A stretch of DNA of 64,000 bases, from contig NZ_JAESFE010000001.1 in assembly GCF_019646055.1 (NCBI RefSeq), positions 186,001 to 250,000 on the forward strand, given 5' to 3'. The notes beneath the pieces are model-generated. The model saw only the letters and a program-made list of their open reading frames with translations. It did no database searches and was not told where the DNA came from. The position numbers were made by a program, and so were the translations under genes. Numbering within the stretch: position 1 is the first letter of the stretch; the number at the start of each line of letters is the position of its first letter. Positions 61,745 to 63,660 of this stretch are shown in pieces. Origin of the DNA: Sodalis sp. CWE (lineage in GTDB: Bacteria > Pseudomonadota > Gammaproteobacteria > Enterobacterales > Enterobacteriaceae).

Positions 61745-62787
61745 TCTAATAATATGTTATTTTTAATTTAATCAAGTAGCATTTGCTATTAATATCTAAC
61801 TCTGATAAATAAAACCAAACTTGTTATAATGTATATGATAGAATTAGGCTGACCATAGTAATGCGAATGGAACTAAGCAAAAGCATGTTTATTCTTTTTA
61901 AGAGATTTTTTAGTATTTTTAGATATGTTGTATAAATGTATTTATAAGAACCAAAAGAAACATGTTTCTCTTACCTTAAGAGATAAGATAGTTTAAAAAA
62001 TCGGTATCTAAATAAAGTGTCTGCTTACTTTTATCAAGTAAACTTAATATAAAGTCATGTTTTTCAGCTCTCTTCTCCTTGGGAAAAATGCTTAATCAGT
62101 TTTTAGTATGTTGTTTCTTTTTTTTAGACTTAATACTAATGCTAGTAGCTTTTAGTTATACTATCATTTCTAGTGACGAGTGATACAGTTACATTATAAG
62201 AAACCAATTTGTTCAAATATAAATTAATTATTCAATACGATTTGATTCCTGTTGTGTAATACAGAGTAATTTCCTACATTAGCAATTTGTAATTACGCTT
62301 TTCCTTTACGCAGAAGGAGACACTCGTTTGATAGCACAAATATTTATGGGATTAGATTGCAAAAAATTATAAATCGAGATCAACATAAATATGTTGCGGT
62401 TCAAACCGCAACAGGTTTATATGTTCGTTAACATATGCCTCTTAAATCAAAGAGTTCCGAACTCTATTTAATTGCTGACGAGTAATTTAAAAGAAAATTA
62501 TAGAAATATTTTTATTGAAAATCTATAGATGTTACATAGATCGCGCAGCTTGCGTAGATACTTAAATATCTCATTTTTTAATAAATGACCTTTGGAGAAG
62601 ATATTTTGCATATAAAACTTATGTTATAAACATATCCTTTTGCATTTCTATGTTACTTTCAGTAACTTTTTTCAGAATGATTTGCATACATCTTCATACT
62701 TACCATGCAATACTGCATTGAAAAATCTTTTCAACTACTTTGTTGAAGTATAAAAAAGTTGTAGTATTTCATTTCAATTATTCTAAA
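61745..62787. other. Gene-free spacer where rseP is expected
   Basis: About 1.04 kb lies between cdsA and bamA on the reverse strand, the exact place of rseP in enterobacteria. No frame shows the HExxH or PDZ motifs of RseP. Structures are a TCTCTTA/TAAGAGA stem at 61967-61983, a striking hairpin at 62391-62412, and a TTCAAC/GTTGAA stem at about 62732-62749 just downstream of cdsA. The bamA promoter must lie here. Confidence 0.55.
62391..62412. repeat. Perfect ten-base-arm hairpin in the rseP gap
   Basis: TGTTGCGGTT and AACCGCAACA are perfect arms around a CA centre, with imperfect extension outward (AACATAAA on the left against TTTATATGTT on the right, positions about 62381-62424). The GC-rich core is conspicuous in sequence of very low GC. 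It is about 650 bases upstream of bamA and 375 bases downstream of cdsA. Confidence 0.6.
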
Positions 62788-63660
62788 TTAAATACTCTGA
62801 AAAATTTTTAACATAAAACATGTAAATATTGGTAAAGCAGCAATCAAACTATCTATACAATCTAAAATACCACCATGTCCAGGAATTAATCTACTACTAT
62901 CTTTGATTTTAACCTCTCTCTTTAACATGCTTTCAATTAAATCACCGAGTACTGAAGCCAAAACCGTGGCAATTGATGAAACAATTAAAGCAACTGTTGA
63001 TTTTGATTCAAGAGGCGCATATATTCCGAATAACCAAGAAACAGTTGCAGAAGTAATTAAACCACCGATGAACCCTTCCCAGGTTTTTTTAGGAGAAATT
63101 TTTGGTGCTAATCTATAATACCCTAAAGTACGTCCAAATATATAAGCGCCAGTATCTGTACTCCATACTAAAACCATAACATATAAAATCCACCAAGCGC
63201 CAATAAAACTATTGGTAGAATAATGGTGATATCGAAGGATTAACATCCCCCAGAAAAATGGAGAAATAGTCAAGAAGCCAAATATCAATCGTAACAGTAT
63301 AGATGTACGCCAGATTGTAGAAGAATAAGGATAAGATAATATCAGGCAAAAAACTATTATAAACCACCAAAATAAAATAGTCAAAGAGATAAAATTTATT
63401 CGCCAAACTAAAAATGACGAATGCGTTGATGTCATAAAGATCATCAATAGTGTTAGAAAGATTCCATAGAGAATAGTTAGAAAAATCTTGTGGCTATTCG
63501 AGTTTAGTCCTGCTAGCTTTCCCCATTCCCAAGCGCTGAGCATACATATTGCAAGAGTAATTAACGAAAATCCGGTTAGAGATAATGAAAACAATAAAAA
63601 AATAACAATTGGTATCAGAAGAAAAGATGTAACTATACGTTGTTTTATCAAAATTTTCAC
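62788..63660 (-). CDS. cdsA: Phosphatidate cytidylyltransferase CdsA
   Basis: CdsA makes CDP-diacylglycerol from phosphatidate and CTP, the branch point of phospholipid synthesis. The 290 residues (285 in E. coli) form about eight membrane segments and include FLLIPIVIFLLFSLSL, CMLSAWEWGKLAGL, GFLTISPFFWGMLILRYHHY, LVWSTDTGAYIFGRTLGYYR, LAPKISPKKTWEGFIGG and the signature SMLKREVKIKDSSRLIPGHG. The signature normally ends with GILDRxDS; here it is GILDCIDS, with Cys268 in place of an invariant arginine. It follows uppS by 24 bases, as in E. coli. Confidence 0.94.
   Translation of the reverse strand: MKILIKQRIVTSFLLIPIVIFLLFSLSLTGFSLITLAICMLSAWEWGKLAGLNSNSHKIFLTILYGIFLTLLMIFMTSTHSSFLVWRINFISLTILFWWFIIVFCLILSYPYSSTIWRTSILLRLIFGFLTISPFFWGMLILRYHHYSTNSFIGAWWILYVMVLVWSTDTGAYIFGRTLGYYRLAPKISPKKTWEGFIGGLITSATVSWLFGIYAPLESKSTVALIVSSIATVLASVLGDLIESMLKREVKIKDSSRLIPGHGGILDCIDSLIAALPIFTCFMLKIFQSI

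Follow-up and report, generated by a model that had tools for sequence, protein, structure and literature searches.

Replacement of the CdsA signature arginine by cysteine in Sodalis sp. CWE

Fold and signature of the Sodalis sp. CWE CdsA

CdsA, the phosphatidate cytidylyltransferase, occupies the step from which the routes to PE, PG and cardiolipin branch. The T. maritima enzyme (PDB 4q2e and 4q2g) provides the structural frame for the comparison made here. In this enzyme, D219 and D249 form the metal dyad, and the strict signature of CdsA reads KDX5PGHGGX2DRXD, as given in the accessible part of PMC7018664. The accessible part of a second study (PMC5404519) reports that D246 is required for CdsA activity, and that the G246C and D249N substitutions, located in the same motif of the S. 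oralis protein, were accompanied by the loss of CdsA function. We numbered the T. maritima residues by counting from S223 and S258, which are named in the titles of 4q2g and 4q2e and were seen in the sequences. These titles appear to be swapped: 4q2e is titled S200C/S258C and 4q2g S200C/S223C, and the chains carry cysteine at 223 in 4q2e and at 258 in 4q2g.

The gene studied here lies in a stretch of 64,000 nucleotides from Sodalis sp. CWE (hereafter called the window) and has the following features.

62788..63660, minus strand: cdsA, phosphatidate cytidylyltransferase; 290 codons with a GTG start, assigned from the open reading frame, PF01148, NCBIfam NF008635 and the structural match to T. 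maritima CdsA
62857..62859, minus strand: codon 268, TGT (Cys); Arg in 191 of 194 distinct homologs
62848..62877, minus strand: signature HGGILDCIDS (residues 262-271), in which the aspartates D267 and D270 are unaltered
62941..62943, minus strand: D240 codon, intact; aligned to D219 of the T. maritima metal dyad

The frame encodes 290 amino acids with no internal stop codons, in agreement with the earlier note, which had called the gene otherwise full length. Its product is predicted to make CDP-diacylglycerol from phosphatidic acid and CTP. The protein matches PF01148 (CTP_transf_1) with 212.4 bits against a cut-off of 24, over model positions 1-261 of 264. Against the NCBIfam equivalog model NF008635 (PRK11624) it falls narrowly short, with 372.4 bits as compared to the required 385, over positions 2-284 of 285. 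Every residue named in the strict KDX5PGHGGX2DRXD signature is present except the arginine, which is replaced by cysteine. The aspartates of the bacterial-type CdsA are all in place: D240 and D270 correspond to the dyad D219 and D249, D267 corresponds to D246, and C268 takes the place of R247. Across the 26 near-invariant columns of the family, the Sodalis sp. CWE protein departs only at position 268, and the other 25 residues, including these three aspartates, are intact.

The AF2 model of the protein (pLDDT 90.7) has the CdsA fold. Its four best PDB matches are chains of 4q2g and 4q2e, with E-values of 1.5e-06 to 1.9e-05, TM-scores by target of 0.73-0.75 and rmsd values of 7.3-7.5. Thus, the Sodalis sp. 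CWE and T. maritima enzymes share the fold and the metal-dyad aspartates, whereas they differ at the arginine site and are only 22-23% identical in the structure alignment. In the model, which cannot judge a single residue, position 268 lies close to where the last helix (residues 265-289) begins. A comparison with the archaeal CDP-archaeol synthase 5guf gives no information on the arginine, as the profile alignment ends before the motif. Among closer proteins, the CdsA of Sodalis relatives (L032 and L033; family NF008635) is 59-60% identical to that of Sodalis sp. CWE and shares its core residues and its neighbours uppS, dxr and bamA, but has arginine at position 268.

Distribution and origins of the arginine losses

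How rare is a CdsA without the signature arginine? We read position 268 in 209 loci, which correspond to 194 distinct proteins after fifteen duplicate loci were merged. Arginine occupies the position in 191 of them (a count that retains the broken L228 and the frame-broken L131 and L132, all with Arg), cysteine in two and threonine in one. The relatives of Sodalis sp. CWE bear arginine codons at this site, CGT in Sodalis L032 and in G522, and CGG in G504. Both the minus-strand codon and the homolog alignment thus confirm the replacement of arginine by cysteine that the earlier note had read from the TGT codon in HGGILDCIDS, and the comparison with relatives that it had proposed finds arginine almost throughout. 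The departure in Sodalis sp. CWE is therefore real in the sequence and rare. It is not unique, since three of the 194 distinct homologs also lack the arginine.

These three proteins come from genomes of at most 1.2 Mb. Serratia symbiotica SCifornacula (G029) has a TGT codon in L130, to which L049 is identical. The same codon is found in L237 of G473, which we take to be Pantoea carbekii (contig of 1,150,626 bases), and an ACT codon encodes the threonine in L236 of G506, presumably the Blochmannia of Polyrhachis (contig of 749,321 bases). In all three, the frames of cdsA, uppS and rseP are open. The S. symbiotica case resembles that of Sodalis sp. CWE in its TGT-encoded Cys268, its open frame and its reduced genome, and differs from it in the asparagine at position 254, the separate lineage and the intact rseP. 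The cysteine-bearing cdsA of Sodalis sp. CWE belongs to a pattern that recurs in a few reduced genomes. In the open literature that we searched, we found no report that symbionts have lost this residue repeatedly.

The recurrence also bears on the quality of the base call. A base-calling or assembly error, with an arginine codon as the true codon 268, would need only a single wrong base, since TGT is one base from the CGT of Sodalis. However, the frame and its surroundings are clean, and two further genomes of this kind, each sequenced independently, show the same residue change, which makes the cysteine state plausible. We therefore regard such an error as very improbable.

In genomes of at least 2 Mb, arginine was found in all 68 read; these were mostly the best-scoring matches, taken from a set that by our count holds over 200 further large genomes matching cdsA. 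In the deliberately chosen small genomes (47 genomes, nearly all small, plus 17 further stretches), the count below 2 Mb is 53 Arg, three Cys and one Thr out of 57, with Sodalis sp. CWE added and the broken copy L228 left out. The difference (Fisher p = 0.041) is indicative only, as kinship was uncorrected and the sampling uneven. The retention of arginine in 53 of these 57, in some cases in CdsA proteins only 28-37% identical, indicates that the residue is under selection even there. The threonine of G506 does not represent a simple one-step slip, since no arginine codon can be reached from ACT with fewer than two changes.

A search for the HGGxxDCxD pattern found matches in 11 of 394 genomes of the order (G473 not being among the 394), and only those of G000 and G029 lie inside cdsA. 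The nine other loci lack a CdsA match. A match to cdsA was also found in 19 plasmid records; the five matches listed are from E. coli, at about 72%.

Some loci show damage of another kind. L228 (G438, contig of 745,590 bases) is a true wreck of cdsA with nine stops in the match, and its remnant keeps the arginine; G438 has no PF01066 match. In L131 (G017) and L132 (G028), from genomes of about 5 Mb, cdsA is split over reading frames. These splits are possibly assembly errors, because cdsA should be essential there.

We then have the question of whether the losses share an origin. In a tree of 125 CdsA proteins, built without L228, L131, L132, the stop-containing rows and the distant loci L055-L111, the four proteins lacking arginine are placed apart from one another, at four positions, and 0% of 200 bootstrap trees unite them, although the bootstrap was unsettled. 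If only the starred branches of this tree are considered, no more than two changes are required, and a clade of the three cysteine rows is compatible with the AU test on CdsA (p = 0.416). G506 groups with Blochmannia floridanus and with three congeneric genomes, all with arginine (98/75). Its separate origin rests on this CdsA tree, in which the two support values are uneven.

The uppS and dxr genes provide a further view. Their combined tree was built without L039, L234, L236 and L239, which have missing columns, and G506 is hence absent from it. Sodalis sp. CWE forms a group (93/92) together with two Sodalis, Steffania and the Sodalis of Henestaris. Both S. symbiotica and G473 belong to a different group of 15 rows (100/100), in which the nearest relatives of S. 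symbiotica are Rahnella and Hafnia (99/97) and those of G473 are Mixta and Pantoea haifensis (100/99). These genes reject a single origin of the three cysteine cases (p = 3.9e-98), as are the pairings of Sodalis sp. CWE with S. symbiotica (p = 0.0015) and of S. symbiotica with G473 (p = 1.2e-05). This shows that the three cysteine cases are separate events.

Genome setting and lipid genes

The Sodalis sp. CWE genome comprises 797,418 bases in two contigs, is listed as 100% complete with 0 contamination, and contains the window as part of contig 2. The G+C content of the window is 32%. The size, the composition and the best matches to Sodalis relatives point to a shrunken genome of an insect symbiont. 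Upstream of cdsA lie uppS, dxr, frr, pyrH, tsf and rpsB, and downstream lies bamA, as named by recognition of their open reading frames. In relatives, rseP separates cdsA from bamA, but Sodalis sp. CWE has no such gene there. The corresponding 1,043 bases (61745-62787; 27% G+C) yielded one weak rseP-like relic of 14 residues with an E-value of 0.049, in a search limited to this stretch. In G504 (L234), a relative with an 800 kb genome, rseP is visibly broken at the same place.

Does the cell still need CdsA? The accessible part of PMC11481867 lists cdsA, pgsA, plsBC, psd and pssA as core essential in Enterobacteriaceae, and adds that phospholipid genes were lost several times in reduced genomes. 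The need is not universal, as the loss of CdsA is tolerated by S. mitis and S. oralis, according to the available portion of PMC5404519. A second intact cdsA, which the earlier note had named as an observation that would remove the puzzle, was sought by a PF01148 search of the whole 797 kb genome, and the single match was the cdsA at 62788-63660. Hence, no other member of that family could do the job of CdsA.

The genes that use its product are retained in Sodalis sp. CWE. We identified pgsA (312.1 bits against a cut-off of 304), pssA (679 against 314), a psd-family decarboxylase (TIGR00163, 269.2 against 111.75) and cardiolipin synthase (594 against 290), together with a plsC-like acyltransferase that scores above the TIGR00530 cut-off and below that of NF011593. 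Moreover, the pgsA family PF01066 is present in all 27 genomes with a cdsA frame of at least 276 residues, including the four without the arginine, and in none of the 21 genomes without a full cdsA, namely 20 without a cdsA match and G438 with its nine stops. In this set of 48 genomes, the making and the using of CDP-DAG are therefore kept or lost together, and the genomes without the arginine are on the kept side.

These observations bear on the proposal that the Sodalis sp. CWE CdsA is inactive or nearly so, as the first step of the decay of cdsA in a cell whose membrane lipid is supplied by the host, a supply on which symbionts without the route must depend. Such decay has precedents: cdsA is unmatched in 63 of 392 genomes of the family, 20 listed ones among these being of at most 600 kb, and Buchnera is reported to lack nearly all phospholipid genes except cls (PMC12356351, in its accessible part). 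In addition, the adjoining rseP is already a relic. However, the cdsA frame has neither a stop nor a break, just one of its 26 near-invariant columns departs, all of the consumers that we looked for are kept, and in the 48 genomes neither cdsA nor the pgsA family is retained without the other. We consider this explanation unlikely. The substitution and the full-length frame described in the earlier note are upheld, and the genome has no second cdsA; its reading that an essential enzyme is endangered finds only partial support. The conflict that the note implied between essentiality and Cys268 is weakened, because three other reduced genomes lack the arginine and keep an open cdsA and a pgsA-family gene.

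Role of the signature arginine

What does the signature arginine contribute to CdsA? We found no published role for it in the open literature searched. The earlier note had assigned residue 268 to the metal/CTP-binding region. The residue does sit between two active-site aspartates; since the accessible parts of the sources name neither metal nor CTP binding as a function of the arginine, its belonging to this region means proximity rather than a demonstrated contact. The arginine probably helps to position or steady the last helix where it begins, between the two aspartates, without being the catalyst itself.

Taken together, the evidence favours a working, perhaps slower CdsA, in which the arginine, a useful but dispensable support, was lost by drift; we consider this account likely. 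Since this arginine is absent from at least three further bacteria with small genomes, the residue is probably helpful but not indispensable. The reaction should still proceed, given that the metal dyad and the rest of the near-invariant core are retained. An enzyme that has the dyad and D267 would still bind metal and turn over, perhaps at a lower rate, which may suffice in a slow-growing symbiont. The substitution would require one C-to-T change in a CGT codon, as found in Sodalis, to give TGT, in the direction expected in an AT-rich genome, and Cys268 was most likely fixed by drift in the AT-rich, reduced genome of the symbiont. Against this account stand the missed NF008635 cut-off, the loss of function in the S. 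oralis G246C and D249N variants, the arginine kept in 53 of 57 small genomes, and the ACT codon of G506. The several natural losses of the arginine also caution against inferring an inactive CdsA from a single mismatch to the signature.

A broader proposal is that the arginine of HGGxxDRxD is not needed for the chemistry of CdsA, so that symbionts have shed it repeatedly with an active enzyme, and that it is a residue for tuning or stability, possibly a partner of D254. We offer this only tentatively, as a possible but not the probable case. If it is true, the supposed catalytic hallmark becomes a tuning or stability residue, and the symbiont enzymes may be slower or handle substrates differently. 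The several natural losses of one signature residue constitute a natural experiment on the role of the residue and on the erosion of essential enzymes in symbionts.

A rival explanation holds that the arginine and D254, the aspartate of the KD in the signature, form one supporting pair, so that the loss of either makes the other less needed and the enzyme is re-tuned. The D254 column departs in 11 of 56 genomes below 2 Mb as compared to 0 of 68 larger ones read, the strongest small-genome bias of the 26 columns. It is changed in two of the four proteins without the arginine versus 11 of 190 with it (Fisher p = 0.023, indicative only, with kinship uncorrected). This distribution in the alignment suggests that D254 and R268 may together make up a single element that supports the site. 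However, Sodalis sp. CWE and G506 keep D254, nine small genomes changed D254 and kept the arginine, and L059, from a MAG, also has asparagine at D254. Such a pair is distinctly improbable, and we retain the reading of a working enzyme with a dispensable arginine. The position of D254 is occupied by asparagine or glutamate in the small-genome loci L129, L195, L209, L222, L224, L225 and L227, among others.
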